In this document: positions 2,954 to 19,168 of the stretch, in pieces
How positions within the stretch are numbered: the stretch's first letter is position 1
Layout: each line of letters opens with the position of its first letter
NCBI GenBank assembly: GCA_003611875.1
Contig: RAYY01000029.1
Location: 1 to 64,000 of the forward strand
DNA length: 64,000 bases
Reading direction: 5' to 3'
Source of the DNA: a bacterium D16-56
GTDB lineage: Bacteria > Bacillota > Clostridia > Lachnospirales > Lachnospiraceae
The notes under the pieces: generated by a model
Database searches by the model: none
What the model was told of the DNA's origin: nothing
What the model saw: only the letters and a program-made list of their open reading frames with translations
Made by a program: the position numbers and the translations under genes

Positions 2954-2997
2954 TTTAATTTAAGGGTTTAAAGGGTTATAATACCCTTAATACCCCA
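2954..2997. promoter_or_regulatory. AAGGGT/ACCCTT repeat cluster upstream of VRR-NUC operon
   Basis: The stretch contains TTTAAGGGT (2959-2967), a second AAGGGT (2971-2976), then ATACCCTTAAT (2981-2991) in the opposite orientation. The two outer words also occur in the operator region of the second HTH switch (14,718-14,728 and 14,755-14,763). It lies where the promoter of the VRR-NUC/helicase operon is expected. Confidence 0.4.
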
Positions 2998-3020
2998 TAT
3001 TTCATATTTATATAGATAAA

Positions 3021-5627: not shown

Positions 5628-5631
5628 GGCT

Positions 5632-7596: not shown

Positions 7597-8522
7597 ATCC
7601 CCATCACGCTCCCATAGAGCGGCATCCCCGTCACCGGATCTGTGGCCGGGGGAACCGGGGCAGCCCCGGCAGGCGGGAACCCGGATGCATAGCCTGGAGC
7701 ATTCTGGAACTGTCCTCCATACCCTGCGGGCGGAACCGGTGGATTCTGGGATTGCCCTCCGTAACCTGCAGGCGGAACCGGCCCAACCCCTGCACCTGAC
7801 GTCCCGGAAGGTCCGGAAGCATATCCCGGTGGATTCTGAGAGGGCCCTCCGTAACCTACAGGCGGAACCGGCCCAACCCCTGCACCTGATGTCCCAGAAG
7901 CATATCCCGGTGGATTCTGGGGCGGCCCTCCGTAACCTGCAGGCGGAACCGGCCCAGACGGAGTAGGACTCAGAGCCATCCCATAAGTAGACGGACCGTT
8001 CCAGACATTCCTGCCCCCGAAATCTTCCTCTGGGGTTGTCCGTCCGGACAGCGGCTCCCCGTCCGCTATCTTCTGTATATTATTCAAACCACATCCCACG
8101 CCCCGGTTCCCGTTCTGGTTAAAGGCAAAAAAGTTTACAGAAGCACGTGCGTAGCATCCGGAATAAAACCCATTGGGGTCTAAAATCGGCTGGATATCTT
8201 GATCCACCACAGAAGGACGCACCTTGCTGGACGCACGGACCACCCAGCATCCCCTGCACTCCTCCCCAAAAGGCTCCCCGTTATCCATCACACCGTCCCC
8301 GTCATACAACGGCATTTTGGGCCTTGCCGGCTTATGCCCGCCAAACACCTTCTGCACCCCGTCCTCAAGCGCCTGATTCATGGCGGCACAGATAGCCTGG
8401 TAAGATGCCTGGTCTGACTTGGCAAACAACATCGTAATTTGATATTTTGGCTCCCCGTCTCCCTTCGGGGCCTGCGGCTGAAACACATGGGCGTAGCTTG
8501 CCCGGAATACTCCTGTTATCAT
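7593..8522 (-). CDS. DUF2815 ssDNA-binding-like protein with repeat tail
   Basis: 309 residues. The first ~170 match the DUF2815 family, phage proteins thought to be T7 gp2.5-like single-strand DNA binding proteins (YQITMLFAKSDQ, and GFYSGCYARASVNFFAF). Residues ~185-300 are an unusual Pro/Gly/Tyr tail built from near-tandem units PVPPAGYGG.xQNPPGYASG, also visible as a DNA repeat at about 7650-7960. TPEEDFGG between the two parts also occurs at the C-terminus of the upstream DUF2800 protein. Start and stop overlap the neighbours by 4 nt. Confidence 0.88.
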   Translation of the reverse strand: MITGVFRASYAHVFQPQAPKGDGEPKYQITMLFAKSDQASYQAICAAMNQALEDGVQKVFGGHKPARPKMPLYDGDGVMDNGEPFGEECRGCWVVRASSKVRPSVVDQDIQPILDPNGFYSGCYARASVNFFAFNQNGNRGVGCGLNNIQKIADGEPLSGRTTPEEDFGGRNVWNGPSTYGMALSPTPSGPVPPAGYGGPPQNPPGYASGTSGAGVGPVPPVGYGGPSQNPPGYASGPSGTSGAGVGPVPPAGYGGQSQNPPVPPAGYGGQFQNAPGYASGFPPAGAAPVPPATDPVTGMPLYGSVMGI

Positions 8523-9745
8523 GGCTGGTCTCCTTTCTTATAAGCGTTTGCCCCTCCGAAGTCCTCCTCCGGCGTACTGTCTTTTACATAGTCCGGACGT
8601 TTATCCCCCTCCAGAGCCAGGGCGGGCGCCCCTTTAGGCTTTACAATAAACGGGGCAAGAATCGATTGGTACTCCTCTTTTGTAATCAGTTTCTCCGCCT
8701 CTGTCAGCGGCACGGGAACCTGCTCATAAAACATGGCCTTCTTATACCCGGCCTTTATCAAGGCCCCATAGGCTGCTTTAGGGTCTGTCAGGCTCCGGTT
8801 GCTCCTCCCCTCCACCAGCTTCCATCCAGGCACCGCCTCCCCGGCAAGCAGCTTTGCCAGCGCTGCCTTTTTCACTTTCTTAATCCAGGGCTCCGCCATC
8901 ATAAGAAGGGGGAGGAGCTTCCCGATCTCCTCATTGGTCAGCAATGCCTCCTCTTTCATCTTCCCGGTGGCCGGATCCACCTGTGCCTGCAAAACCGGGA
9001 CATTGGCGTCTGCACGCGCCCTGCAGGTCCCGGCTGCACAGCAGAAACAGTCGTCACACCATTTCCCCTGCTGAAACTCCCCTCCCCCTTCATATGCCTT
9101 CTGGGCTGCCGGCCTGACCACAGTCTCCGCCCAGGCATTAAGGTCCCGGACTGAGGTAGTCCATTGGGAAAAGTTTTTCACCCGGGGCTGCACGATATGG
9201 AAATGCACCGTGTCGATGGGGAAAATCAGGCCATATGCCTGTAAAGCTCCCAGAGCGTACAAGGCCATCTGGCAGTTTCCCTCCGCCTCCACCACGATCC
9301 CTTTCCCATATTTAAAATCCACTACATGCAGCTCTGTGCCATACATTACAATACAGTCCGCCGTTCCGAACCCTTCCGGAGCAATATAGCTGTAATCCAC
9401 CCGCTTCTCCACTGTTATGTACGGGGCTGAGGGATACTGGTACGCGATCTGCTGCACATAGTCCCTGTACTCGTCCGTGTACCGCTCCATCTCCGTGCTG
9501 AAATGCTTTCCCTTCCTCAATTTGTTCAACCCGGCCTTATAATCCTTCTCCGGCATCCCCGGCTCCAGGAACAGCTTCCTCAGCTTAAGCTCACAAAACT
9601 GATGGGCCAAGGTCCCTTCCTCCGCCGCCGCAGAGGTTTCCTCTGGGAACTGTTCTCGGAGGCGGGCAGAAGGCGGGCAGTGGATCCACTGCTTCGCGCT
9701 GGATGCCGAAAGGATGGCATGGGCCCTTTCTGCCGGCGCCGTCAT
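8519..9745 (-). CDS. DUF2800 RecB/Cas4-like nuclease
   Basis: 408 residues of the DUF2800 family, related to RecB/Cas4 PD-(D/E)XK exonucleases. Visible: SSAKQWIHCPPSARL at the N-terminus, AEEGTLAHQFCELK, then GTADCIVMYG..HVVDFKYGKG containing the D...DxK core, QMALYALGA (the RecB-type QxxxY region), and a C-terminal cysteine group (CDDCFCCAAGTCRA) that may hold an iron-sulphur cluster as in Cas4. It likely processes DNA ends together with the DUF2815 protein. The C-terminus ends in TPEEDFGGANAY, a motif shared with DUF2815. Confidence 0.88.
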   Translation of the reverse strand: MTAPAERAHAILSASSAKQWIHCPPSARLREQFPEETSAAAEEGTLAHQFCELKLRKLFLEPGMPEKDYKAGLNKLRKGKHFSTEMERYTDEYRDYVQQIAYQYPSAPYITVEKRVDYSYIAPEGFGTADCIVMYGTELHVVDFKYGKGIVVEAEGNCQMALYALGALQAYGLIFPIDTVHFHIVQPRVKNFSQWTTSVRDLNAWAETVVRPAAQKAYEGGGEFQQGKWCDDCFCCAAGTCRARADANVPVLQAQVDPATGKMKEEALLTNEEIGKLLPLLMMAEPWIKKVKKAALAKLLAGEAVPGWKLVEGRSNRSLTDPKAAYGALIKAGYKKAMFYEQVPVPLTEAEKLITKEEYQSILAPFIVKPKGAPALALEGDKRPDYVKDSTPEEDFGGANAYKKGDQP

Positions 9746-10329
9746 AGATTGGCCCCCAGAATCCGGAGCTGGGTTGCCAACGCCCCATACTGCTCCTTTG
9801 GCACCTGCATCAAAGATCCCGCCCCAAACTGGGACAGAACCTGCATAACCTGCGGCTGCTTTCCCTGGTCCACAAGCCCCGTCATTGCCACGGCAATCTG
9901 GTCCTGGGTATATGCCGGAGCCGAAGCTGTGGTGGGAACCGGACCCGTCATAGGAGACGGAGCCGCCGATCCGCCAGATGGCGGAAACGGACTTCCAGGC
10001 ATGTTTACCGGAGCGCCCTGCTGCTGTACCGGCATTGCAGGCATACCCGCCGGATAACTGCCAGAGGCCGCTGGTACCGGCGCCGGCTGCTGTACCGGAA
10101 CGGGCTGCTGCACTGGTGCTGTCTGTTGTACCGGAGCCACCTGCTGCATGGGGGCCGCCTGCTGCATCTGGGTCTCTGCGGAGCCATTTGCCAAAGCGCT
10201 TTTTGAAACATCTGCCGCCTCTTTGTACTGCAGGCTTGCCGTTACTCCGCTGGCTCCCATTGCACGGGCCAGGTTATTGATCGCCTCTGCGATTACCTCA
10301 AGTCCACTGAATTTAATGGATACGTTCAT
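9742..10329 (-). CDS. Q/P-rich phage protein
   Basis: 195 residues from ATG 10329, chosen because GGAAGGAG stands 7 nt before it. The N-terminus (VSIKFSGLEVIAEAINNLA) and C-terminus (DQIAVAMTGLVDQG..LATQLRILGANL) are folded-looking. The middle is a Gln/Pro/Val/Ala-rich repeat (PVQQPVPVQQPAPVP). It overlaps DUF2800 by 4 nt and heads the coupled DUF2800-DUF2815-polymerase-primase run. Comparable proteins occur in the same place in other clostridial prophages, but their role is unknown to me. Confidence 0.8.
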   Translation of the reverse strand: MNVSIKFSGLEVIAEAINNLARAMGASGVTASLQYKEAADVSKSALANGSAETQMQQAAPMQQVAPVQQTAPVQQPVPVQQPAPVPAASGSYPAGMPAMPVQQQGAPVNMPGSPFPPSGGSAAPSPMTGPVPTTASAPAYTQDQIAVAMTGLVDQGKQPQVMQVLSQFGAGSLMQVPKEQYGALATQLRILGANL

Positions 10330-10409
10330 AGTTTTCTCCTTCCCTCTCCTGTTCATTTCCATCTTGATTTTCTTTAAAAACCTCTCTATAATAGAAGGGT
10401 GATAAGCTT

Positions 10410-10691
10410 TTACAATCCTATCAGTTCCCCGGCTGTAATCTTGGCCGGGGTTTCTGCTTTCCCGGTAGTTTTAAGCCGGGTCATGTACTCACAGCACTCC
10501 CAGCTCCTTAGCTGTTCATCGATCATCATCCCGGCCCCGAAGCTCATCACCGTCTGAAACATCTGCTCCAAAGTATAAGCCTGGAAGGGCCTTACCCCAT
10601 CCGGGGTAGTATAGGCCCGCCACACATCCAGCATCAGCCTCAGCCGGTCCATCTGCTGGTGGCTGAGGTTATATTCTACGCTCATCTGCAT
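10410..10691 (-). CDS. Small phage protein, uncertain start
   Basis: 93 residues from ATG 10691 (QMSVEYNLSHQQMDRLRLML). The strong AAAGGAGG upstream is 17 nt from this ATG, which is too far. An in-frame ATA at 10700 lies 8 nt from it and would overlap the upstream stop as ATAG, the usual 4-nt coupling in this operon, so a rare ATA start adding three residues is possible. Helical, no known domain, two Cys. Function unknown. Confidence 0.7.
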   Translation of the reverse strand: MQMSVEYNLSHQQMDRLRLMLDVWRAYTTPDGVRPFQAYTLEQMFQTVMSFGAGMMIDEQLRSWECCEYMTRLKTTGKAETPAKITAGELIGL

Positions 10692-10696
10692 CTGTG

Positions 10697-10840
10697 CTAT
10701 GGCTGTCTCCTCCTTTCCTGTCTCCTCATCCCCAACGGCCCCTGCACTCCCTGCTGGTATTTCAGAAACCGGGCCTGCCGCTGTGCTGCGGCTTGTCCGC
10801 TATGTACCCGTTCAAACTCCACGATACGCTTCTTTGCCAT
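10697..10840 (-). CDS. 47-aa basic phage protein
   Basis: Starts at ATG 10840 after GAGGAGGATGCCAT and ends at TAG 10697, giving 47 residues beginning MAKKRIVEFERVHSGQ and ending QERRRQP. It is strongly basic and helical. The good ribosome binding site and tight packing between two phage genes support it as real. A nucleic-acid-binding accessory role would fit the composition but is not shown. Confidence 0.6.
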   Translation of the reverse strand: MAKKRIVEFERVHSGQAAAQRQARFLKYQQGVQGPLGMRRQERRRQP

Positions 10841-10859
10841 ATGGCATCCTCCTCTCATC

Positions 10860-11012
10860 TTAAAAAAGCAGCAAATAAACCAAAACCATTAAAGTGACGC
10901 ACACACCTTCCAGCGCCACCACCCACCGCTCCAACATCCGGATATACCGGGCCTGCCTCTGGCCAGGGGTTAAATAAACTTTTCCCCTTGGCATGAATTT
11001 CAAATCTTTCAT
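10860..11012 (-). CDS. 50-aa single-pass membrane peptide
   Basis: ATG 11012 follows AGGAGGGAAA; a longer upstream frame has no such site. The 50 residues start basic (MKDLKFMPRGKVYLT) and end in one hydrophobic helix (VVALEGVCVTLMVLVYLLLF), so a cytoplasmic N-terminus with a C-terminal membrane anchor is likely. No family recognised. Confidence 0.6.
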   Translation of the reverse strand: MKDLKFMPRGKVYLTPGQRQARYIRMLERWVVALEGVCVTLMVLVYLLLF

Positions 11013-11097
11013 TTTCCCTCCTGCTCCATGTGCATCCATATTGTCCAGGCTCCAGGCAGCACTTCGAACAATCTGAAGCACTTCCGGACTAATCTGC

Positions 11098-11346
11098 TTA
11101 AATTCCTCTTTTTACAAATTTAATATCATATCCTGCCAGGTCAAGTATCAGTGAGAGGTCACAGAATCTAATCTTGGGAAACGCTTTTTGGTCGCGTTTG
11201 TGCCGGACACTGGTAGCCTTTATACCGTTCTCCCCTATATACTTCCCTATTTCTTTGTCAGTCCAGCCTTTCCTGGATTTAAGCTCCGCTATGATAGCGT
11301 TTATATCTTCATGCGCTTGTTGATATGGCGTCTTTTTTACGGCCAT
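11098..11346 (-). CDS. Small HTH-like phage protein
   Basis: 82 residues with a helix-turn-helix-like centre (WTDKEIGKYIGENGIKATSV) and a Cro-like tail (IRFCDLSLILDLAGYDIKFV). AGAGGAGGAAATATT precedes ATG 11346. It is the first gene of the GC-richer minus-strand module and the likely first product of leftward phage expression, so it may regulate that operon. DNA binding is inferred from pattern only. Confidence 0.65.
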   Translation of the reverse strand: MAVKKTPYQQAHEDINAIIAELKSRKGWTDKEIGKYIGENGIKATSVRHKRDQKAFPKIRFCDLSLILDLAGYDIKFVKRGI

Positions 11347-11377
11347 AATATTTCCTCCTCTTAAATGTCTGCTTTAC

Positions 11378-11668
11378 TCAAAAAAGCTGCATCTGTTCCC
11401 CTTCCCTTTTCACTTGAAGTTTTCTTAAAATTTCTTTTGATAAATTTAAACATTCCAGATAAGTTTGAAACCACCCTGTTTCTTGAGTTGGTTCTGTTAA
11501 ATACCAAAATCTTTTTTCGAGAATCCATGTCGAACGCGAAGACCAAATAGGATAATCGCTAAATCCTGCCTGGAAAGGCCGTGATCGGTAAGCACTCTTT
11601 CCAGACGTTCCTTTTCGTCCTCAGATTCAGTTGTTAATTCAAATCTGCGCCACTCTATTTTCCATCAC
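11378..11668 (-). pseudogene. Possible frameshifted small gene
   Basis: A good site GGAGGTGATGG (around 11,668) leads to ATG 11665, which stops after eight codons. A neighbouring frame then reads WKIEWRRFELTTESEDEKER..LSRQDLAII, and a third frame from about 11,560 reads WILEKRFWYLTEPTQE..VKREGEQMQLFE to TGA 11378. Both look coding, so one gene broken by frameshifts is plausible. No start or family can be fixed. The rest of 11,347-11,780 shows nothing else clear. Confidence 0.3.
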
Positions 11669-11694
11669 CTCCTCTCTAAGCTCCTTTGTCTGAT
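11664..11694. repeat. 31-bp direct repeat copy A (leader)
   Basis: The block starting ATCACCTCCTCTCTAAGC recurs at 14,176-14,206 with about two mismatches. On the minus strand it contains GAGAGGAGGTGAT, a ribosome binding site, so it looks like a duplicated gene leader. Confidence 0.6.
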
Positions 11695-11780
11695 TCCACT
11701 TGTCCTTTCCTTCTTCTTCCCTTATACTGTATTCACAGGCTGTTGCCGCAGCCGAGTACATAGGAAAGGAAAACAATATC

Positions 11781-12002
11781 ATGAAACGCATTTATGCGAA
11801 CCTTTTAGGAAACTGGATCGACATTACAGAAAACGGGACAGTTGAGGACCATCAAAATCCATTAGTATACTTTGAAGAGAATCTTCGTTATGCAGATGGT
11901 TCTACGACTGCTGAATGTTTTAAATACGATTACGTCAATGTCCAGTATAATGGTTCCAACTACCGTATCCACCCATCATGTATCCAAATCGTTGAAAGCT
12001 AA
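11781..12002 (+). CDS. 73-aa phage protein of a convergent pair
   Basis: ATG 11781 follows GGAAAGGAAAACAATATC and gives 73 residues (MKRIYANLLGNWIDITENGT.. to ..YRIHPSCIQIVES). Beta-rich, acidic, no known domain. A decayed copy of its last 24 codons lies at 12,690-12,764 (DYVNIFYKGKDNRINPIFIQ), so the gene was duplicated. Its stop overlaps tail-to-tail with the minus gene ending at 11999. Codon use is AT-rich, like the rest of the switch region. Unknown function. Confidence 0.65.
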   Translation: MKRIYANLLGNWIDITENGTVEDHQNPLVYFEENLRYADGSTTAECFKYDYVNVQYNGSNYRIHPSCIQIVES

Positions 12003-12181
12003 AACTCAATTTGGATAGCTTTCTTTAATTCCTCAATATCTCCCACCACTACCCTTGCTGATGTTGAGGAAAATTTTTTATCAATCGCCATCTTAATGCG
12101 TGACCATTCATAATACTTAAGACCAGCCACGGCTTCAGCAATCATGGCGATTCTCCGCTCTCTATCTTCTATCTCCCTCAC
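11999..12181 (-). CDS. Small helical protein, paralog of 12756-12947
   Basis: About 60 residues (IAMIAEAVAGLKYYEWSRIK..AIDKKFSS). It aligns with the minus gene at 12,756-12,947 (AIFKCVQGLTFLEWQKLKQAIDENFRS). The frame opens at GTG 12181, but that codon lies inside the Shine-Dalgarno AGGAGGTGA; ATA 12172 (8 nt downstream of GGAGG) or ATG 12145 are other candidates. Its stop overlaps the stop of the convergent 73-aa gene. The convergent pair is repeated, partly decayed, about 750 bp to the right. Confidence 0.55.
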   Translation of the reverse strand: MREIEDRERRIAMIAEAVAGLKYYEWSRIKMAIDKKFSSTSARVVVGDIEELKKAIQIEF

Positions 12182-12214
12182 CTCCTATTCTCTTGTCAAT
12201 GTGCTGTGTTGCCG
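12178..12214 (-). repeat. RBS-containing leader repeat, copy 1
   Basis: Minus strand reads CGGCAACACAGCACATTGAC then AAGAGAATAGGAGGTGA. Other copies are at 12,629-12,667, 12,943-12,970 and 14,131-14,159; each ends in a strong ribosome binding site. Confidence 0.7.
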
Positions 12215-12315
12215 TTCTGTATCGACTTCTGTCTATCTGGAATTATTATCCATCCCGTGCTATAATTCTCTTATCAAAACTGCCATACAAAAAATTGATG
12301 AAAGGAATTAATCGC

Positions 12316-12510
12316 ATGAAGCTTTCCAATGAAGAAAAGCAAGCTATCCTGGACTCTTGCGAAGATGAATCTCTTAAAGTGATCCGATATCTCCAGGAGC
12401 AAGAAACCAAACAGAAACCTTATAATTTAGCTATGCTCATTTTTACCATCATCAGCGCTACAGGAGCCGTGATTGCCGCCGTCACTGGAATCCTTATGTA
12501 TTTCCAATGA
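12316..12510 (+). CDS. 64-aa single-pass membrane protein
   Basis: ATG 12316 follows AAAGGAATTAATCGC. The product begins MKLSNEEKQAILDSCEDES, carries a charged helical N-terminal half, and ends in a membrane helix (LAMLIFTIISATGAVIAAVT) and ILMYFQ. It overlaps, tail to tail, the minus-strand frame 12,427-12,624 by 84 bp; both have ribosome binding sites. Small membrane proteins in lysogeny regions often act in superinfection exclusion, but nothing here proves that. Confidence 0.5.
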   Translation: MKLSNEEKQAILDSCEDESLKVIRYLQEQETKQKPYNLAMLIFTIISATGAVIAAVTGILMYFQ

Positions 12511-12624
12511 CTGTTTCAATCCCCGTATCTCCCGAAGTATCTGAACCTGTATCATCAGGCTGACGTTCTTCATCTTGTCGGCCTGATGCTCTATCAGGTC
12601 TAAACCTTTGTCTGTTAGAAGCAC
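12427..12624 (-). CDS. 65-aa hypothetical, overlaps plus gene
   Basis: GTG 12624 follows GGGAGGTGAGGG in leader repeat copy 2. The first ~45 residues are helical (LLTDKGLDLIEHQADKMKN..QVQILREIRGLKQSLEI); the rest is Ser/Gly/Asp-rich and lies opposite the membrane segment of the plus gene. The leader argues that it is translated; the overlap argues for caution. Confidence 0.45.
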   Translation of the reverse strand: MLLTDKGLDLIEHQADKMKNVSLMIQVQILREIRGLKQSLEIHKDSSDGGNHGSCSADDGKNEHS

Positions 12625-12628
12625 CCCC

Positions 12629-12667
12629 TCACCTCCCTTATTCTGTTATCAATGTGCCGTGTTGCCG
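12629..12667 (-). repeat. RBS-containing leader repeat, copy 2
   Basis: Minus strand CGGCAACACGGCACATTGAT then AACAGAATAAGGGAGGTGA; closest to copy 1, including the CGGCAACAC start. Confidence 0.7.
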
Positions 12668-12689
12668 TATTGAACCACCTCCTACGCTA

Positions 12690-12764
12690 GATTATGTCAA
12701 TATCTTCTACAAAGGCAAAGATAATCGCATTAACCCAATATTCATACAAATAGTGTCAGAATAA
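12690..12764 (+). pseudogene. 3' relic of a copy of the 73-aa gene
   Basis: Twenty-four codons plus TAA read DYVNIFYKGKDNRINPIFIQ then IVSE, matching the C-terminus of the gene at 11,781-12,002 (DYVNVQYNGSNYRIHPSCIQ then IVES). The 5' part is gone. It remains convergent with the paralogous minus gene 12,756-12,947, preserving the paired layout. Confidence 0.75.
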
Positions 12765-12947
12765 TCTTTCGTATGAATCCATCAACTTTTCCGGGGCTGC
12801 CATAGGTATTTTATTATTCTGTTTGGTAGCCTCGCTTCTGAAATTCTCATCAATAGCCTGTTTCAGTTTTTGCCATTCCAAAAATGTAAGTCCTTGTACG
12901 CACTTAAAAATGGCTTTAAGTTTTTCGTCCTCCAATCCCCTGTTCAC
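12756..12947 (-). CDS. Small helical protein, paralog of 11999-12181
   Basis: About 60 residues (LEDEKLKAIFKCVQGLTFLE..) homologous to the minus gene at 11,999-12,181. The frame opens at GTG 12947, which lies inside the ribosome binding site AGGAGGTGAAC; TTG 12935 is the better-placed start and lines up with ATA 12172 in the paralog. Unknown function; part of the duplicated convergent cassette. Confidence 0.55.
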   Translation of the reverse strand: MNRGLEDEKLKAIFKCVQGLTFLEWQKLKQAIDENFRSEATKQNNKIPMAAPEKLMDSYERLF

Positions 12948-12970
12948 CTCCTATTCCATTATCAATGTGC
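12943..12970 (-). repeat. RBS-containing leader repeat, copy 3
   Basis: Minus strand GCACATTGATAATGGAATA then GGAGGTGAA. It directly abuts boundary repeat R1 (12,973-12,994). Confidence 0.7.
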
Positions 12971-13040
12971 AAAACCGCCATCTTAAAAAGGGACATGCCA
13001 AATTTGAGCCTTGTGGGTTATGCTTTTTATCTACATTCAT
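12951..13040 (-). CDS. 29-aa candidate peptide
   Basis: ATG 13040 lies 8 nt after AAAGGAGG and the frame runs 29 codons to TAG 12951 (MNVDKKHNPQGSN..FLRWRFCTLIME). It follows the Cro-like gene 13,077-13,301, and its 3' half is made of boundary repeat R1 and leader copy 3. It could equally be a chance frame through repeats. Confidence 0.3.
   Translation of the reverse strand: MNVDKKHNPQGSNLACPFLRWRFCTLIME
12973..12994 (+). repeat. Boundary repeat R1
   Basis: AACCGCCATCTTAAAAAGG plus GAC. Plus orientation; lies left of switch module 1. Related copies: R2 14,405-14,425 (minus), R3 15,226-15,249 (plus), R4 15,366-15,388 (minus). Confidence 0.8.
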
Positions 13041-13076
13041 CTACCCCACCTCCTTTCTCTGTCTCCCTTTAAATTC

Positions 13077-13301
13077 TCATTTTCGAGATAAACTGGCTGA
13101 GAAAAAAATAGATACTACTTCATCCCAAGTAAGATTAAGTTCTTTAGATATTGCGTCCACTTCTTTTATTGTAAAATCAGCCCCTTTCCTATTTAGTTTT
13201 CTATAAAAAGTAGACCTATTTATCCCAATTTTTTCAGAAATATCAGATACGCTTATTCCCTTTTCGGTGAGTATACTACGTATCCTATCCACATTCACCA
13301 A
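13077..13301 (-). CDS. Cro-like HTH regulator, switch module 1
   Basis: 74 residues with a clear helix-turn-helix (VSDISEKIGINRSTFYRKLN) and a tail typical of small phage Cro/XRE proteins (LTWDEVVSIF). TTG 13301 is favoured: AAGGAGG stands 8 nt upstream; GTG 13298 is the alternative. It is divergent from the larger repressor at 13,475, the classical cro-cI layout. The intergenic region holds a perfect inverted repeat TCTCA-TATG-TGAGA close to this start, likely an operator for one or both proteins. Confidence 0.8.
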   Translation of the reverse strand: MVNVDRIRSILTEKGISVSDISEKIGINRSTFYRKLNRKGADFTIKEVDAISKELNLTWDEVVSIFFSASLSRK

Positions 13302-13474
13302 ATTTCCTACCTCCTTATATTCTCATATGTGAGATATTTTAAGTTTTACATATCCTTTTTTTTCGCTGTCAATAGATTTTTCACTTTTTTGGGATTTATC
13401 GAAATATTTCATTCCTTTATTGTTGCACTTTTGAGAATCGTGTGCTAAAATGCAATTATTAAGGAGGTGTCATC
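13302..13474. promoter_or_regulatory. Operator/promoter region, switch module 1
   Basis: Plus promoter: TTGCAC 13,423-13,428, 17-bp spacer, TAAAAT 13,446-13,451, then AAGGAGGTG before ATG 13475. Minus promoter candidate: TTGACA 13,372-13,367 with TAAAAC 18 bp on. Inverted repeats TCTCATATGTGAGA (13,321-13,334) and GAAATATTTC (13,401-13,410) are operator candidates. Confidence 0.65.
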
Positions 13475-14053
13475 ATGGATATAGGAAATCGTATTAAACA
13501 ACGTCGATTAAGTTTAGGTATAACCGCCGAAGATTTAGCTTATGAAATAGGCAAATCACGCACCACTATTTATAGATATGAAAATGGGGATATCGAAAAT
13601 ATTCCAACTACCGTTTTAGAGCCTTTAGCTGAAGCCCTTCGTACCACCCCTTCATTTCTTATGGGATGGGACGATGATCCGGAAGATTATGAATCACTGG
13701 CAAATGAATATGGCATATGCCCTCCAAAGGACTATGACGGTAACATAGAAGATTGGATTAAAGCTAAACAAGTCACAGATGAAGATTATGATCAAGAAAT
13801 AGAACATAATTCTAGCGACAATTATTTATATCAAGATGATACACAAGCATTTACCTATACAAACACTGCTACTCCAGCGGAATTTGAAAAGCTGGTAAAG
13901 CCATACCGCTCCCTTGACGATTCTGGTCGCATCCATATAGATATTGTTTTGGACCGGGAAGTCGAACGCACCACCCAAGCCAAAGAATCCGCCGACACTA
14001 TAGAGCATCTTCAACAGCAGTTAGCCATACGCCCCATTCCTAAACAGACTTAA
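13475..14053 (+). CDS. XRE repressor (CI-like), switch module 1
   Basis: 192 residues. The N-terminal XRE helix-turn-helix is residues ~5-60 (IKQRRLSLGITAEDLAYEIG..TTIYRYENG). An acidic linker follows, then a short C-terminal domain (LVKPYRSLDDSGRIHIDIVL) shared with the module 3 repressor. There is no LexA-type Ser-Lys peptidase, so induction is more likely by ImmA-type cleavage or an antirepressor. A strong promoter and ribosome binding site precede it, and a hairpin terminator follows at 14,081. Confidence 0.85.
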   Translation: MDIGNRIKQRRLSLGITAEDLAYEIGKSRTTIYRYENGDIENIPTTVLEPLAEALRTTPSFLMGWDDDPEDYESLANEYGICPPKDYDGNIEDWIKAKQVTDEDYDQEIEHNSSDNYLYQDDTQAFTYTNTATPAEFEKLVKPYRSLDDSGRIHIDIVLDREVERTTQAKESADTIEHLQQQLAIRPIPKQT

Positions 14054-14080
14054 TCGCACATCCCTAAATATGATTCCCTT

Positions 14081-14113
14081 TGCCCAGTCTGCAATACTGG
14101 GCATTTCTTATTC
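14081..14113 (+). terminator. Terminator after module 1 repressor
   Basis: TGCCCAGT (14,081-14,088), 7-nt loop, ACTGGGCA (14,096-14,103), then TTTCTTATTCT. Placed 28 nt after the repressor stop. Confidence 0.75.
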
Positions 14114-14130
14114 TACTCATCCATCTTCCC

Positions 14131-14159
14131 TCACCTCCTATATTCTCTTGTCAATGTGC
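14131..14159 (-). repeat. RBS-containing leader repeat, copy 4 (orphan)
   Basis: Minus strand GCACATTGACAAGAGAATAT then AGGAGGTGA. The frame it serves, ATG at about 14,122, stops after three codons, so its gene is lost or is only a leader peptide. Confidence 0.65.
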
Positions 14160-14175
14160 GTCCCTGCTATTTTTA

Positions 14176-14206
14176 ATCACCTCCTCTCTAAGCCCCTCTG
14201 TCTGAT
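14176..14206. repeat. 31-bp direct repeat copy B (leader)
   Basis: Near-identical to 11,664-11,694. It overlaps the 3' end of the HTH gene 14,188-14,394 and carries GAGAGGAGGTGAT on the minus strand. Confidence 0.6.
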
Positions 14207-14394
14207 GCGAACAGGTAGTCAAAATCATATTCTGGAAACAACTCCGCTTTTGTTGTCTTGGCTTCTGGATAGGTTATGACCGTTTCCTCGTTCACCTTAT
14301 TCCATGCAGTTTTTTCAGAAACGCCAATAACTGCTGCATAGGCCTTAACGGAAATGCCTTTCGTGTCCAAGGCCTTCTTTAAATTAGCAAGCAC
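14188..14394 (-). CDS. Cro-like HTH paralog, switch module 2
   Basis: 68 residues starting at GTG 14394 after AAAAAGGAGGTGAAAAA. It is a clear paralog of the next gene upstream: shared pattern NLKKAL..KGISVKAYAAVIG..EKTAWNK..TYPE..ELF..DYLFA. The ISVKAYAAVIGVSEKTAWNK segment is the helix-turn-helix. Its ribosome binding site lies within boundary repeat R2. Two tandem Cro-like paralogs in one switch is unusual. Confidence 0.75.
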   Translation of the reverse strand: MLANLKKALDTKGISVKAYAAVIGVSEKTAWNKVNEETVITYPEAKTTKAELFPEYDFDYLFASDRGA

Positions 14395-14404
14395 TTTTTC
14401 ACCT

Positions 14405-14425
14405 CCTTTTTAAGATGGCGGTTGC
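14405..14425 (-). repeat. Boundary repeat R2
   Basis: Minus strand GCAACCGCCATCTTAAAAAG then G, the inverse of R1 and R3. It sits between the two Cro-like paralogs and supplies the AAAAAGGAGG of the downstream one. Confidence 0.8.
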
Positions 14426-14445
14426 TGATGATACTCCTTGGATTA

Positions 14446-14670
14446 TCATGCTGTCTGCTTGGGGGGATTGTAGGACGCTTTTTCAGCGAATAGGTAGTCA
14501 GCATTATACTCAAAAAGCAGAGCGCAGGTCTTTTTGAACTCTGGATATGTAAAATCCGTTCTGCCTGTTAATTTGTTCTGCACAGTTTTTTCTCCAGTTC
14601 CCAAAACTTCTGCATACTGTTTTACAGAAATTCCCTTCTGCCGTAATGCTATTCGTAAATTATCATACAT
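14446..14670 (-). CDS. Cro-like HTH regulator, switch module 2
   Basis: 74 residues from ATG 14670 (after AAGGGAGATGAAAAC), with helix-turn-helix ISVKQYAEVLGTGEKTVQNK and C-terminus DYLFAEKASYN. Paralogous to the gene at 14,188-14,394. Divergent from the 111-aa XRE protein at 14,827; three ACCCTT-type operator sites lie in between, one inside this gene's promoter spacer and one near its start. Probably a phage Cro-like regulator. Confidence 0.8.
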   Translation of the reverse strand: MYDNLRIALRQKGISVKQYAEVLGTGEKTVQNKLTGRTDFTYPEFKKTCALLFEYNADYLFAEKASYNPPKQTA

Positions 14671-14826
14671 GTTTTCATCTCCCTTCTACCCTTATGGGTA
14701 ATTCTTGTGTTTAATATATACCCTTAATCGTAATACGTCAAGTACTTTTTTACGTTTAAGGGTAATTTTCTGCTTGATTTTTACTTTTTTCCATGATAGA
14801 ATCGCTTTATTGGAGGTGATGAAACG
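14671..14826. promoter_or_regulatory. Operator/promoter region, switch module 2
   Basis: Minus promoter TTGACG (14,741-14,736), 17 bp, TATATT (14,718-14,713). Plus promoter TTGATT (14,774-14,779), 17 bp, TAGAAT (14,797-14,802). Operators: palindrome TACCCTTATGGGTA (14,687-14,700); ACCCTTAATCGTAA (14,720-14,733), which fills the minus spacer; and its inverted partner TTACGTTTAAGGGT (14,750-14,763). Confidence 0.75.
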
Positions 14827-15162
14827 ATGGATTTCCTAGAAAAGCTAAATTATTTGATGGAGAAAAATCATCTAAATAAAAGCACTTTGTCCAAAGCATG
14901 TAATATCCCATATACCACTATTGATGGCTGGTATAAAAAAGGATATGAAGGACTAAAGCTAACTACCTTGCGAAAATTGGCAGAATATTTTGGAACCTCT
15001 CTGGACTACTGGGCATCTGAAGAAATATTTGAAGAAGGGAATAATCCACTTGATGCACAAATCTTAAAACTCTATTCTTCCTTAACCGATGAGAACAAAA
15101 AATATCTATATGGATATATACAACGTCTGTTTGAGGAACAGCAAACAACGATGCAGGAGTGA
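14827..15162 (+). CDS. XRE repressor-like protein, switch module 2
   Basis: 111 residues. XRE-type helix-turn-helix at residues ~8-62 (LNKSTLSKACNIPYTTIDGW..LRKLAEYFGTSLDYW), then a short helical tail (LKLYSSLTDENKKYLYGYIQ). TTGGAGGTGATGAAACG precedes ATG 14827. It is much shorter than the repressors of modules 1 and 3 and lacks their C-terminal domain. Likely the lysogeny-side regulator of module 2. Its stop codon lies in a hairpin. Confidence 0.8.
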   Translation: MDFLEKLNYLMEKNHLNKSTLSKACNIPYTTIDGWYKKGYEGLKLTTLRKLAEYFGTSLDYWASEEIFEEGNNPLDAQILKLYSSLTDENKKYLYGYIQRLFEEQQTTMQE

Positions 15163-15223
15163 TTCCTACTCCTGCATTAGCCCACATGGTAGTGTATAAC
15201 ACATATTTTCCAGTGTTATACAC
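15151..15223 (+). terminator. Two hairpins after module 2 repressor
   Basis: ATGCAGGAGT/ACTCCTGCAT (15,151-15,177, 7-nt loop) overlaps the stop. GTGTATAACAC/GTGTTATACAC (15,192-15,223, 10-nt loop) follows. Neither has a T-run, so termination or RNA stability function is tentative. Confidence 0.5.
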
Positions 15224-15311
15224 CAGCAACCGCCATCTTAAAAAGGGACTTTTGTTTTAAGCCGGATGTTTCAATATACGATTTTAATAATTCGTGATTG
15301 AGGTCGAGCAA
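15216..15311 (-). pseudogene. Truncated HTH paralog between R3 and R4
   Basis: GAAAGGAGGAGATACAG precedes TTG 15311; the frame gives 31 codons (LDLNHELLKSYIETSGLKQK then SLFKMAVAGV) to TAA 15216. The part ETSGLKQKS matches the N-terminus of the module 3 Cro-like protein (EKSGLKQKSISERAGLS), so this is the start of a related gene cut off where boundary repeat R3 begins. May still be translated as a peptide. Confidence 0.55.
15226..15249 (+). repeat. Boundary repeat R3
   Basis: GCAACCGCCATCTTAAAAAG then GGAC. Inverted with respect to R4, 117 bp away, and R2. Confidence 0.8.
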
Positions 15312-15365
15312 ACTGTATCTCCTCCTTTCAGATTCAGTTTTTCTGAATCAAATATATAATAAAAC

Positions 15366-15388
15366 TCCCTTTTTAAGATAGCGGTTGC
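15366..15388 (-). repeat. Boundary repeat R4
   Basis: Minus strand GCAACCGCTATCTTAAAAAG then GGA; one mismatch to R3. It lies just after the stop of the module 3 Cro-like gene. Confidence 0.8.
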
Positions 15389-15395
15389 GGTTTCT

Positions 15396-15623
15396 TTACA
15401 TCACCTCCCTCTTGTTTGGAAAACAGGGCTTAAGGAACTTTTCCATAGGAACTCCTAACGCCAAACAAATACTTGCATATTCCCCAGTTTCGCATTTTCT
15501 TTTTCCTTGCAAAATTAAACATAAAGCAGTTTCTGACAGGCCTGCTCTTTCAGATATTGATTTCTGTTTTAATCCGGACTTTTCTACCTGTTTTCGCAAA
15601 CCATCAGTATCTAATACAAACAA
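15396..15623 (-). CDS. Cro-like HTH regulator, switch module 3
   Basis: 75 residues from TTG 15623 (after CTGGAGGTGATTTCGAT). XRE helix-turn-helix KQKSISERAGLSETALCLIL followed by GKRKCETGEYASICLALGVP. Divergent from the 160-aa repressor at 15,783; transcribed from a consensus promoter (TTGACA-17-TATAAT) whose spacer holds an operator. The 3' end carries GGGAGGTGATGTAA, a ribosome binding site with an immediate stop, which suggests loss of the next gene. Confidence 0.8.
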   Translation of the reverse strand: MFVLDTDGLRKQVEKSGLKQKSISERAGLSETALCLILQGKRKCETGEYASICLALGVPMEKFLKPCFPNKREVM

Positions 15624-15782
15624 ATCGAAATCACCTCCAGAATTTCGGTTTTCTTGATATTTTTGATTATATATCGAATTTCTTGTGCTGTCAATAATAT
15701 TTTTCGATTTTCTTGATATCTTTCTTTACAAAATCGGAATTTTTGTATATAATGTAACCATAATCACTTGGGGAGACTTTAA
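15624..15782. promoter_or_regulatory. Operator/promoter region, switch module 3
   Basis: Four direct repeats of consensus TCGRWTTTCTTGATA start at 15,645, 15,674, 15,704 and 15,734 (29-30 bp apart). Minus promoter TTGACA 15,694-15,689 and TATAAT 15,671-15,666 encloses repeat 2. Plus promoter TTTACA 15,725-15,730 and TATAAT 15,748-15,753 encloses repeat 4. Both spacers are 17 bp. Confidence 0.85.
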
Positions 15783-16265
15783 ATGAATAATTATGTTATA
15801 AGAAAATTAAAAGAAGGGCGTGTTAATGCCAAATTAAAACAATCTGAAGTAGCATCAAAAATCGGCATTAAACCAAATACTTTAAGTAATTATGAAAATG
15901 GCGTCTCGGAACCTGATATAGATACTTTTTGTGCTTTATGTGATATATACAATTTAAACCCATCTGATATTTTAAATGAAGCATATGGATTAAGTGTACA
16001 AGGAAGCAATTTTACTATTAAGCCTTCTGAAATTAAACACATAGAAAAATATCGCCTACTCGACCAACATGGCAAAGAAATGACGGATTTTGTTCTCAAT
16101 AAAGAATACGACCGCTGCCAAGCCATCCAACAAGAGAAAGTTGCCACCCTATCCAAGAAGCCCACTCGTCCGATTCCAACTGCTGCCCATGCTGATGATT
16201 ACATCCATGCTCCAGACGATCTCAAGCAATTAGAGGAAGATATTATGGATGATGAGAATTTCTAA
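15783..16265 (+). CDS. XRE repressor (ImmR/CI-like), switch module 3
   Basis: 160 residues. XRE helix-turn-helix at ~5-62 (LKQSEVASKIGIKPNTLSNY then ENGVSEPD), a linker, then a C-terminal segment (EKYRLLDQHGKEMTDFVLNK) shared with the module 1 repressor, and an acidic tail. GGGGAGACTTTAA precedes the ATG. It is followed by a coiled-coil gene and an ImmA-like protease, so it is probably the protease target, as ImmR is for ImmA in ICEBs1; that link is inference. Confidence 0.85.
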   Translation: MNNYVIRKLKEGRVNAKLKQSEVASKIGIKPNTLSNYENGVSEPDIDTFCALCDIYNLNPSDILNEAYGLSVQGSNFTIKPSEIKHIEKYRLLDQHGKEMTDFVLNKEYDRCQAIQQEKVATLSKKPTRPIPTAAHADDYIHAPDDLKQLEEDIMDDENF

Positions 16266-16295
16266 AATAAAGACAAAAAGAGAGGTGAACAAGAC

Positions 16296-16586
16296 ATGTT
16301 AGATGAAAAAGATTTAGAAATGATCGCTAAAACGATAAGAGAATCCAATGAGCCTATATTGGAAGAAATGAAAAAACTGGAAAATAAGGTTACAGAAGTC
16401 CAAATGACATTAGAAAATGAAACCAACAAAGAAATCCGTATTATTGCTGAAGGCCATCTTGACCTTTCACGCAAACTGGATGATGCCTTAAAAGTGGAAA
16501 ATGAGAAAGAAATGTTACTCTTACGTGTTACCCATCTAGAAAATGAAGTTAGAAGATTAAAACAACGTATTGAGGAAATCGCCTGA
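16296..16586 (+). CDS. Coiled-coil protein between repressor and ImmA
   Basis: 96 residues, almost entirely helical with heptad spacing (ILEEMKKLENKVTEVQMTLE, later LLLRVTHLENEVRRLKQRIE). AGAGAGGTGAACAAGAC precedes the ATG. Same-strand and close to both repressor and protease, so likely in one operon. Similar short coiled-coil proteins occur beside phage repressors in Firmicutes; an adaptor or antirepressor role is possible but unproven. Confidence 0.75.
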   Translation: MLDEKDLEMIAKTIRESNEPILEEMKKLENKVTEVQMTLENETNKEIRIIAEGHLDLSRKLDDALKVENEKEMLLLRVTHLENEVRRLKQRIEEIA

Positions 16587-16603
16587 TCCAAGGAGTGATA
16601 CTA

Positions 16604-17065
16604 TTGAGCTATGATGAACTCTTGCTAGAAGCAGACAATACCGGGCTTGTTGTGAAAGAAAAAAAACTTCCGGTAAGCAAGGGAAGGATTAAAGGAAAAA
16701 GAATTGCTATTAGGCAGAGCATTCCTACCCTGACAGAAAAAGCTTGTGTACTTGCGGAAGAAATCGGACATTACCATACCAATACATATGATATCTTAGA
16801 CCAAGAAACAACTACAAACAGAAAAATAGAACGTGCCGGACGGATGTGGGCTTATGACAAACAAATTGGTTTATGTGGAATCATCCAAGGATACCATGCC
16901 CACTGCCAAAATAGCTATGAACTGGCGGAATGCCTAAATGTAACAGAGGATTTCCTTCAAGAAGCCCTCGAATGTTATAAGGAAAAATATGGTGTTAAAG
17001 TTGAATTTGACAATTACTTCATCATATTTGAGCCATCATTGGCTGTGATTGAAAAGTATTCATGA
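16604..17065 (+). CDS. ImmA/IrrE-family metallopeptidase-like
   Basis: 153 residues from TTG 16604, chosen because AAGGAG is 8 nt upstream and the product then begins SYDELLLEADNTGL like its relatives; GTG 16595 overlaps the ribosome binding site. The zinc motif region reads TEKACVLAEEIGHYHTN: the first His of HExxH is Glu, with the second Glu and the His kept, a form I recall from clostridial phage copies. It ends with a phage-type substrate part (YKEKYGVKVEFDNYFIIFEP). Probably cleaves the module 3 repressor on induction. Confidence 0.82.
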   Translation: MSYDELLLEADNTGLVVKEKKLPVSKGRIKGKRIAIRQSIPTLTEKACVLAEEIGHYHTNTYDILDQETTTNRKIERAGRMWAYDKQIGLCGIIQGYHAHCQNSYELAECLNVTEDFLQEALECYKEKYGVKVEFDNYFIIFEPSLAVIEKYS

Positions 17066-17204
17066 TTCGATTAAAAAACTTATTACCAAACAAAAATATA
17101 TAGGAGTATCATCTAGCTTATCTCGATATAATTGTTGATGATAAAGGAGTGAAACTTGTTTGTAAAGTTTTTTGTAGAGTTTAAGGAAAGATTGAGGAAT
17201 AGTT

Positions 17205-17747
17205 ATGCAATTACTGCAAGAAAAAGTTTATACTATCCAAGATATTTATGCCCTCCCAGACGGTCAAAGAGCTGAGCTCATTGATGGGGTGATCTATATG
17301 ATGGCGCCTCCAAGTACAAAACACCAGGAAATATCCGGAAACCTTTATTATAAAATCAGAAGTTATATAGATGGCAAAAAAGGAAAATGTAAAATATATA
17401 CTGCTCCATTCGCAGTTTTTCTGTATGATGATGATTTAAATTATGTGGAACCTGATATTTCCATCATTTGTGACAATAACAAAATTGATGATAAAGGCTG
17501 CCATGGGGCCCCTGATTGGATCATAGAAATTATATCCCCATCCACTCAACACACAGACTATGGAATAAAACTTTTTAAATACCGCACTGCTGGTGTAAAA
17601 GAATATTGGATAATAAACCCCTTGACGCACACTGCAAATATCTATGACTTTGAAGGCGAAGAAGGAACTTGTCAATACAGCTTTGATGATGACATTCCCG
17701 TATGTATTTTTAAAGATTTAAAAATATGCATTTCCGGCTTACTATAA
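17205..17747 (+). CDS. Uma2-family (DUF820) PD-(D/E)XK protein
   Basis: 180 residues. Family marks: YALPDGQRAELIDGVIYMM, YVEPDISIICD, DWIIEIISPST and GVKEYWIINP, which place the D..ExK-type nuclease residues. The Uma2 family is of uncertain function, often multi-copy, and predicted to be a nuclease. Located between the immA-like gene and the integrase, where phage cargo often sits. The 17,066-17,204 gap ahead of it shows no other gene. Confidence 0.85.
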   Translation: MQLLQEKVYTIQDIYALPDGQRAELIDGVIYMMAPPSTKHQEISGNLYYKIRSYIDGKKGKCKIYTAPFAVFLYDDDLNYVEPDISIICDNNKIDDKGCHGAPDWIIEIISPSTQHTDYGIKLFKYRTAGVKEYWIINPLTHTANIYDFEGEEGTCQYSFDDDIPVCIFKDLKICISGLL

Positions 17748-17941
17748 ATAATTTAATTAAAATGTAAAAACCGCCCCTGCGCCAACAGGAACGGTTCTTG
17801 CATAGATTCTATACCTGGACAGCACACCAGATGATACAATCATACAGCAAGAATATTGTATCATTTTCGGCACCTGCTGTCAAAGGTATGGTGTTATTTT
17901 TGTACCCAAATTTACCAAAAATTTTAGAGGAGGATGGTACT

Positions 17942-18985
17942 GTGGCAAAAAAGAAAAAAAATACTCTCCCATCGGGCAACATTCGCATCCAGGTATATGA
18001 TTACACGGATGTGGATGGAAAAAAGCACTACAAATCATTTACAGCTCCTACGCGGCAGGAAGCAAAGTATCTTGCTGCACAGTGGAAAGCGGGAAAGGCG
18101 GATAAAAAACCGTCCAGGATCACACTGTATGAGGCTGTAAGCCGCTATATTGAGGCTAAAGAGGGCGTACTGTCCCCCAGCACAATCAAAGAATATTTAG
18201 GGATGCAGAAACGCCATATGAAAGATGTTGGAAGAATATGGTTAGATGAGTTAAACACTACGGATATACAGATATGGATTAGTAACAAATCTAAGAGCCT
18301 CTCTCCTAAATCTGTCCGTAACCTTTATGGTCTGCTGTCTGCTGCCATTGAAATGTTCGCTCCGGATTTGCATATTAAAGTATCATTGCCAGAAAAAAAG
18401 CGCCTTGAACTTTATTGTCCATCTGATGATGATGTAAAAACGCTTCTCAGGCAAGTAGCCGGCACCGATTTAGAAATTGCGATTTTATTAGCAGCCTTTG
18501 GCCCCTTGCGCCGTGGTGAAATATGCGCCCTGGATGCTTCGGATATTTCCGGAAACAAAGTGTCCATTACAAAAAGCATGGTAATGGGTTCTGACCGTCA
18601 GTGGCACATAAAGCAGCCAAAAACTTACGGTTCTTACCGCACAATCGAATTTCCTGATTTTGTAATAGATAAACTGAAAGGGAAAAAAGGGAGAATTATT
18701 AACCGTAGCCCAGACGCAATTACCAGGAGTTTTGAAAGGACTATAAAAAGAACCAGCTTGCCCCACTTCCGATTCCATGACCTACGGCATTATGCAGCAT
18801 CTATTATGCACGCCATCGGAGTACCAGATCAATATATACTTCAACGCGGAGGGTGGTCAAGCGATAATGTTATGAAAACAGTATACCGGAATACGATTGA
18901 TATTGAAACCGTGCGGCAAAACAAAAAAATTAATGAACATTTTGATAAAATCGCGTGTGATATTCCGTGTGATACTTTTTTATAA
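17942..18985 (+). CDS. int: Tyrosine site-specific integrase
   Basis: 347 residues from GTG 17942, 8 nt after AGAGGAGG; an upstream ATG at 17,798 has no such site. N-terminal arm-binding part (GNIRIQVYDYTDVDGKKHYK), core-binding SAM-like domain (~75-150), then the catalytic domain with Arg in FGPLRRGEICAL, HDLRHYAAS, the Trp replacing His in LQRGGWSS, and the nucleophile Tyr in MKTVYRNT. It ends 105 bp from the 3' end of a tRNA-Ala gene, the expected attachment site. Confidence 0.95.
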   Translation: MAKKKKNTLPSGNIRIQVYDYTDVDGKKHYKSFTAPTRQEAKYLAAQWKAGKADKKPSRITLYEAVSRYIEAKEGVLSPSTIKEYLGMQKRHMKDVGRIWLDELNTTDIQIWISNKSKSLSPKSVRNLYGLLSAAIEMFAPDLHIKVSLPEKKRLELYCPSDDDVKTLLRQVAGTDLEIAILLAAFGPLRRGEICALDASDISGNKVSITKSMVMGSDRQWHIKQPKTYGSYRTIEFPDFVIDKLKGKKGRIINRSPDAITRSFERTIKRTSLPHFRFHDLRHYAASIMHAIGVPDQYILQRGGWSSDNVMKTVYRNTIDIETVRQNKKINEHFDKIACDIPCDTFL

Positions 18986-19080: not shown

Positions 19081-19090
19081 CAAAATAAAA

Positions 19091-19125
19091 TGGAGACAAC
19101 GGGATTCGAACCCGCGGTCTCTACG
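19091..19125. other. Probable attachment site (tRNA-Ala 3' end)
   Basis: The integrase gene ends next to the 3' half of tRNA-Ala, whose sequence is intact, as expected when an element regenerates the tRNA end at its integrase side. The exact core cannot be defined because the other junction lies left of the window. Confidence 0.5.
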
Positions 19126-19163
19126 TTGCGAACGTAGCGCTTTCCCAGCTAAGCTATGTCCCC
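19091..19163 (-). tRNA. tRNA-Ala (CGC)
   Basis: 73 nt, cloverleaf visible on the minus strand: acceptor GGGGACA/TGTCTCC with the alanine-specific G3-U70 pair, anticodon stem CTACG/CGTAG, loop TTCGCAA giving anticodon CGC, T-loop GGTTCGAATCC. CCA is not encoded. Confidence 0.95.
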
Positions 19164-19168
19164 ACAAC

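Follow-up and report, generated by a model that had tools for sequence, protein, structure and literature searches.

Bacterium D16-56, of the family Lachnospiraceae, carries at one end of a prophage a control region in which three intact divergent pairs of helix-turn-helix (HTH) genes, each with a Cro-like gene on the minus strand and a repressor gene on the plus strand, stand in one 3.2-kb stretch between the early genes and the integrase. The DNA analysed here (the window, 64,000 nucleotides) consists of bases 1-64000 of contig 123 (RAYY01000029.1) of a genome of 5.54 Mb in 202 contigs. Window base 1 is contig base 1, and the prophage extends to the left end of the contig; bases 1 to ~19,000 represent its integrase end. 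The minus-strand replication-side genes encode an SNF2 helicase, a VapE-like protein, a family-A DNA polymerase, an Enc34-type single-stranded DNA-binding protein and a DUF2800 protein, and the order toward the prophage end is small early genes, the three-switch region, a Uma2 gene, a tyrosine integrase gene and a tRNA-Ala gene. An earlier note on this DNA had placed three head-to-head pairs in 12,951-16,265, and all seven of its open reading frames (ORFs) lie where it put them. We refer to cro1/rep1, cro2b/cro2a/rep2 and cro3/rep3, the last with the genes downstream of rep3, as modules 1, 2 and 3:

13077..13301, minus strand: cro1, 74-aa Cro-like HTH protein, leading the leftward early operon (PF13443, HTH_26, 39.1 bits, above the curated cut-off)
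13475..14053, plus strand: rep1, 192-aa repressor, HTH and linker (PF01381, HTH_3, 45.7 bits, above cut-off; phrog_8, 68.7 bits)
14188..14394, minus strand: cro2b, 68-aa paralogue of cro2a (59% identity over 63 aa; no Pfam match)
14446..14670, minus strand: cro2a, 74-aa Cro-like HTH protein (Pfam HTH match below cut-off only)
14827..15162, plus strand: rep2, 111-aa repressor (PF13443, HTH_26, 36.5 bits, above cut-off)
15396..15623, minus strand: cro3, 75-aa Cro-like HTH protein (Pfam HTH match below cut-off; 61% identity to the Roseburia phage Jekyll gene that faces its repressor)
15783..16265, plus strand: rep3, 160-aa repressor (PF01381, HTH_3, 52.2 bits, above cut-off)
16296..16586, plus strand: 96-aa protein, coiled-coil-like by eye (no Pfam match; 59% identity to the gene after a rep3 relative in locus L058)
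16595..17065, plus strand: ImmA-like protein, Peptidase_M78 (PF06114, 24.0 bits, cut-off 22; phrog_87, 111.3 bits)

The HTH proteins are not close paralogues of one another, cro2a and cro2b excepted. The sites and structures predicted in and between the modules are as follows:

13321..13334: module-1 predicted operator TCTCATATGTGAGA
13423..13436: module-1 predicted operator TTGCACTTTTGAGA, overlapping the -35 of the rep1 promoter
14081..14103, plus strand: terminator-like hairpin 3' of rep1, T-run on the plus strand only
14687..14700: module-2 predicted operator O1, TACCCTTATGGGTA (rank 1 in 64 kb with a relatives-only matrix, 19.1 bits)
14719..14732: module-2 predicted operator O2, TACCCTTAATCGTA (rank 3, 18.2 bits)
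14751..14764: module-2 predicted operator O3, TACGTTTAAGGGTA (rank 2, 18.5 bits)
14713..14741, minus strand: cro2a/cro2b promoter-like pair TTGACG-17-TATATT (scan, 10/12)
15151..15223: pair of strong hairpins separating module 2 from module 3, ends approximate (141-nt stretch, z -3.98 on the minus and -4.30 on the plus strand)
15216..15311, minus strand: truncated fourth Cro-like gene LLDLNHELLKSYIETSGLKQKSLFKMAVAGV (31 codons and a stop; SGLKQKS common to cro3 by eye)
15645..15716: module-3 predicted operator words of the TCG type, TCGGTTTTCTTGA at 15645, TCGAATTTCTTGT at 15674 and TCGATTTTCTTGA at 15704
15694-15666, minus strand: module-3 promoter-like pair TTGACA-17-TATAAT (scan, 12/12)
15725-15753, plus strand: module-3 promoter-like pair TTTACA-17-TATAAT (scan, 11/12)

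Repeated predicted operators overlap both promoters in each module, with three sites in module 2, three words in module 3 and two good sites in module 1. Each operator word is confined to its own intergenic region within the window; the earlier note had described the words as distinct, and indeed none was found in the intergenic region of another module, so that cross-regulation by shared operators looks unlikely. The promoter scan returned 25 matches against 16.3 ± 4.6 in shuffled sequences, and a single match therefore carries little weight. The terminator-like scan gave seven sites in all, compared with 3.7 ± 2.0 in shuffles. Between modules 2 and 3, a T-run is present on the minus strand only, at the first hairpin (terminator-like site 15177-15151). 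No minus-strand terminator-like site was found between cro2b and rep1, where the T-run of the intervening hairpin is on the plus strand only.

In module 1, the operator word T[CT][GT]CA-N4-5-TG[CA]GA occurs in the window at 13321 and 13423 only. At least one such site is present in 13 of the 14 rep1 relatives tested, L068 having none; the count took 14 of the 19 non-own rep1 loci, and among the five omitted L072 lacks the word. The promoter-like pair of rep1 was recognized by eye (TTGCAC, 13423-13428; TAAAAT, 13446-13451). Genes like cro1 stand opposite rep1 relatives in other loci, and the gene facing a Rep1-type repressor encodes a small HTH protein in 8 of 10 viral loci (own locus excluded) and in all 9 family-genome loci.

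The operators of module 2 are TAC-N8-GTA sites in exact 32-nt steps, and the next-best score of the module-2 matrix in the 64 kb is 14.7 bits (at 61022). To build this matrix, 46 TAC-N8-GTA sites were taken from the intergenic regions of 17 selected relatives (out of 66 non-own rep2-type loci), the window being excluded; because the pattern and the relatives were picked after viewing the sequences, and the sites were gathered by the pattern itself, the result is descriptive. Three or more sites are present in 12 of the 17 relatives, two in four and one in the remaining relative, whereas shuffled regions average 0.02-0.12. The 32-nt step is kept in most relatives, the third site of L082 and of L083 deviating, and the sites vary symmetrically between relatives (CCCCTAGGGG, CCCTGCGGGG, ACGACCAGTCGT). 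A promoter-like pair on the plus strand scores 9/12 in the scan.

The cro2a product is 73, 81 and 69% identical to those of the genes facing rep2 relatives in L022, L023 and L024, respectively. Rep2 relatives come in long and short forms (29 of the 65 listed ORFs are at least 240 aa; these ORFs come from 66 loci, L036 ending ahead of the gene), and the closest ones are short. Compared with L022, the first 65 aa of Rep2, which comprise the DNA-binding domain, are identical despite 28 synonymous codon differences; judged from these codons, the DNA-binding domain of Rep2 has not decayed. A search for the operator array in 397 family genomes yielded four matches (own, G132, G366 and G287), compared with 2 of 397 for the reversed pattern. 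The matches in G132 and G366 are located at rep2 switches, G366 being inferred to be the genome of L081, and that in G287 looks like a simple repeat; these matches lend weak support to the module-2 arrays. In the genome of D16-56 itself, a module-2-like site occurs at four places, three of which are those of module 2, and the total is below the control counts of 6 and 8. One such site, TACCCCTATGGGTA at G000:C124:266567 (L208), may be a chance match; the gene near it looks like CsoR, a regulator whose sites we take to have such a shape.

The module-3 pattern was derived from its own three sites and demonstrates only their absence elsewhere in the window. Rep3 is 50% identical to the Jekyll repressor and 56% identical over 118 residues to a protein of G111, and in the 13.7 kb of Jekyll beside the integrase no divergent HTH pair other than the Cro3/Rep3/ImmA unit was found. 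The ImmA-like protein does not have the HExxH zinc motif and reads EEIGHYH at this position; Jekyll has EELGHYY and L011 EELGH, so the variant is shared.

The search for relatives used an HTH profile whose seeds were the seven window proteins, so that their own recovery is no test; the profile gave zero reversed-sequence matches, and the search behind L172 and L181 was made without a reversed control. Among the 78 relative loci (25 viral, 51 from named genomes and 2 phage records), one divergent HTH pair was found in 45, two in 6, three in none and no pair in 27, the last group consisting of loci at contig ends or with no partner found. The statement of the earlier note that phages normally have one such pair fits this sample. 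The two-pair loci are L023, L024, L088, L092, L107 and L130, of which L130 is marginal (E 3e-5). The 78 loci are not independent, as L029-L033 have the same lengths and identities, L082 and L083 are alike, and L088 and L107 belong to one genome; in L035 and L112 the counted pair is not the rep2 relative's own. The counting rule also misses genes, since L140 has an extra Cro-like ORF, seen by eye, that the profile did not list. In a second sample based on DUF2800 (38 of 42 non-own matches), one pair was found in 8 loci, two in 1 (L137, where they are far apart) and none in 29, several of these loci ending at contig ends.

Other phages have a rep1-, rep2- or rep3-type pair as their single divergent pair, and stacks of two recur. 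In L023, a second divergent pair and an integrase-like gene accompany cro2a/rep2. L024 combines a pair of a further (rep4) type, HicAB-like genes and cro2a/rep2 with a gene resembling those of serine integrases (named by eye; the HicB match scores 22.1 bits, cut-off 27). In L088, cro2a/rep2 is on the left and the rep4 type on the right, the reverse of L024, and the two rep4 proteins are 60% identical. L088, which encodes a Mu-type transposase, and L107 (both from genome G397) have four pairs between them with Bro-N-type genes interspersed; two of the three Bro-N-type genes tested pass the cut-off and one is just below it, and all five matches in the genome are on these two contigs. L172 has two antirepressor/repressor units, recognized partly by eye. 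Stacking is thus not peculiar to this window, though three HTH pairs are seen here alone. The earlier note had proposed to look for the same order in related prophages and to regard the stack as debris if two of the modules were not transcribed and these prophages carried only one intact unit: stacks of two were found, no relative combines all three modules, and most but not all of the paired relatives carry only one, which does not settle the question.

Several other arrangements were observed in these loci. L088 (1-5605) and L107 (1-3877) appear to be a repressor/Cro array, with Bro-N-type genes that look alike at the C-terminus. L181 (3146-5876) has, by eye, two stacked divergent ribbon-helix-helix pairs and antirepressor-like genes, followed by an HTH gene and an integrase-like gene. 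In L024 (1735-5336), a lone HTH gene lies between two copies of a block of three early genes.

Short sequences shared between the module boundaries bear on how the region was assembled. A 20-nt motif of the CAACCGCCATCTTAAAAAGG type is present, in both orientations, at 12972-12993, 14403-14424, 15227-15248 and 15366-15387, with no occurrence in 100 shuffles, and it is common to the window and the phage contig L078. The leader GCACATTGA(T/C)AA is found on the minus strand at 12193, 12646, 12959 and 14148, three times before small early genes and once after cro2b, and 40 nt across the 3' end of cro2b (14167-14206) match the early region at 11655-11694 with 90% identity. The early-type leader left after cro2b, a sign of decay, is followed, by eye, by a start codon that meets a stop within four codons; its position suggests that module 2 once touched early genes. 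These boundary repeats, together with the Cro remnant and the leftover leader, fit a gain of modules through recombination at short sequences they share, accompanied by some loss. As to module 1 as the possible native switch, the two closest DUF2800 relatives (L134 and L135) have a repressor whose best match in the window is rep1, at only 38 and 44% identity. We also considered whether the inverted repeat 15226-15259/15355-15388 is a miniature inverted-repeat transposable element. Outside the locus, only a 14-base match was found (G000:C129), in apparently unrelated sequence, and of the two copies in L078 one lies after a small gene and the other before one; the mobile-element reading was therefore rejected, and the repeat looks like boundary sequence.

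The integrase end of the prophage contains the following additional features:

17798..18985, plus strand: tyrosine integrase at the prophage end (PF00589, 43.5 bits)
19090-19164: tRNA-Ala, close to the integrase

The Uma2 gene (17205-17747) adjoins the integrase and matches the PADLOC defence candidate PDC-S03 (170.8 bits); L134 has a gene 56% identical to it beside an integrase-like gene. GC content in 1-kb windows is ~0.33-0.42 across 11001-18000, which makes the immunity region AT-rich, and 0.54-0.58 in the replication genes at 8501-11000.

Immunity that involves several loci is already known, and three HTH switches in tandem are a new variant of it. The closest known kind is the bipartite immunity of P22 and the tripartite immunity of P1, P7 and N15 (as set out in part of PMC6550527). 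In common with these phages, the prophage has more than one immunity locus. It differs in that their second kind of locus regulates the first, as in P22 with Mnt and the antirepressor Ant, whereas here the three loci are of the same HTH/HTH kind. The immunity loci of P22, P1, P7 and N15 lie apart, and the second locus of P22 has ribbon-helix-helix repressors. In the present prophage, the genes tested, a subset of its ORFs, gave no Bro-N, AntA, ANT or KilA match. Each module resembles the lambda-type CI/Cro switch in its divergent repressor and Cro-like genes and in its repeated predicted operators over both promoters; the differences are the three tandem units, the different words and the repressors, in none of which (rep1, rep2 or rep3) a Pfam match to the S24 self-cleavage domain was found. 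Module 3 is similar to the ICEBs1-type ImmR/ImmA system, as an M78-domain protein is encoded after rep3 with one small gene in between, but a Cro-like gene faces rep3, EEIGH stands in place of HExxH and two switches precede it. Other Clostridia phages (L023, L024, L088/L107, L140, L172 and L181) also have at least two regulator modules in the lysogeny region. They differ in that the counting rule gives no more than two HTH pairs for any one locus, and several have Bro-N or AntA antirepressors or HicAB-like genes between the modules, none of which was found in the window. In prophages of Clostridium clostridioforme, CI/Cro-, ImmR/ImmA- or C/Ner-like systems are assigned per phage (in the relevant part of PMC11318856). 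A description of three tandem HTH immunity switches was not found in the open-licence literature, judged by titles and the starts of abstracts, and a search on phage Jekyll gave no paper.

The explanation that we favour, with about an even chance of being right, is that the immunity (lysogeny) region has grown by accretion, with Rep1 gating the lytic operon and with Rep2 and Rep3/ImmA as extra switches that add mainly superinfection immunity. What the sequence shows are the three pairs of genes, a set of predicted operators for each, the promoter-like sites and the strong hairpins that part module 2 from module 3; the switches were probably collected from different phages by recombination. This explanation is favoured by the restriction of each operator word to one module, by the largely conserved position and spacing of the module-2 sites, by the presence of each type as a single pair elsewhere, by the recurrence of two-pair stacks and by the shuffled order of modules between loci. 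All three repressors would be made in the lysogen. Rep1 would bind the sites before cro1 and thereby hold the leftward early operon; as it adjoins this operon and has operators before cro1, it is the repressor most likely to hold lysogeny. Rep2 and Rep3 would hold only their own divergent promoters within this prophage. Because the same types of switch are the single pairs of other phages, the likeliest consequence of Rep2 and Rep3 is added immunity in trans: an incoming phage with Rep2-type operators (TAC-N8-GTA triplets) or Rep3-type operators at its early promoter would be repressed, and the lysogen would thereby gain extra superinfection immunity specificities. In lactococcal phages, a cloned repressor protects against phages with a homologous repressor (as described in part of PMC7693887). 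Given the identity of its DNA-binding domain to that of L022, Rep2 should still read L022 operators. The ImmA-like protein would remove Rep3. As no minus-strand terminator-like site was found between cro2b and rep1, the leftward promoter of module 2, once released, might run antisense through rep1 into cro1.

Several observations weigh against this explanation. The truncated Cro remnant (15216-15311) is visible decay, and the middle operator of module 1 is degenerate by eye, leaving two good sites, which is another sign of decay. The claim of the earlier note that each module has its own promoters is weakest for module 1, where the lytic-direction promoter keeps TTGACA (13372-13367) and has no good -10 at 17 nt; several rep1 relatives, unlike the window, have a good -10 by eye. 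Only three Rep2 codons are specific to the window in a comparison with seven close relatives, all of them synonymous, and on such codon counts selection on Rep2 cannot be dated after the stacking. Weak minus-strand terminator-like sites inside cro2b (14373-14356) and rep1 (13879-13864) could stop antisense read-through. The module-3 operator words differ from the sites in the corresponding region of Jekyll, and immunity to Jekyll-type phages is thus not implied. In addition, none of the collections searched yielded a relative that has all three modules; an identical contig in IMG/VR, which covers window bases 2-18985 (18,984 of 18,984 bases), is probably the same assembly rather than an independent copy.

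The strongest competing explanation, possible though improbable in our view, is a functionless recombination mosaic, in which one switch works and the others are recent passengers of phage exchange at short shared boundaries, intact because the event is young. The boundary repeats around the modules (the CAACCGCCATCTTAAAAAGG-type motif, the GCACATTGA leader and the 40-nt early-region match at the end of cro2b) and the Cro remnant are consistent with such a history, as is the presence of a single pair in 45 of the 51 loci where pairs were found. However, all seven HTH ORFs and the promoter-like sites and operator words of modules 2 and 3 are intact, and two-switch stacks recur. A layered circuit like that of P22, P1 or N15 is unlikely. 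Its switches would regulate each other, for example through module-2 antisense transcription over rep1 or through the action of the ImmA-like protein on several repressors, and there would be several induction inputs. The hairpin between rep1 and cro2b, with its T-run on the plus strand, would permit minus-strand read-through; ImmA-like genes follow Rep1-type repressors in L011, L140 and L150, so one ImmA could serve both Rep1 and Rep3, and as the three repressors gave no S24 match, SOS self-cleavage is not expected. Against this, strong hairpins, one with a minus-strand T-run, part module 3 from module 2, weak terminator-like sites lie within cro2b and rep1 on the minus strand, no antirepressor was found among the genes tested and the operator words are not shared. 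That module 3 (rep3, the coiled-coil-like gene and the ImmA-like gene) is a toxin-antitoxin or defence unit and no immunity switch is very improbable, even though the homologues are annotated in the Jekyll record as 'putative anti-toxin, Xre-like' and as 'putative toxin component of TA system' and the neighbouring Uma2 gene has its PDC-S03 match, because rep3 is faced by a Cro-like gene and repeated operator words, the unit is the only divergent HTH pair found beside the Jekyll integrase, the ImmA-like protein has no PADLOC match at 0.001, and ImmR/ImmA-like lysogeny control has been proposed for C. clostridioforme prophages (in part of PMC11318856).

Rather speculatively, the lysogeny regions of Clostridia phages could be cassette arrays of immunity switches, in which whole modules of different specificity, often with an antirepressor, come, go and change order at short boundary sequences and form a stored repertoire of superinfection immunity. 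If so, the window would be a three-unit case, and the Mu-like genome of L088/L107, with at least four repressor/Cro pairs and five Bro-N-type copies, a longer one. The locus supplies three mutually distinct repressor/operator pairs, together with the prediction on Rep2 and L022-type phages. A prophage is usually credited with a single specificity of superinfection immunity. Should it turn out that foreign repressor modules are stacked and kept, immunity would no longer be a fixed property but a cassette that can be gained, and one prophage could decide which other phages enter a gut bacterium.

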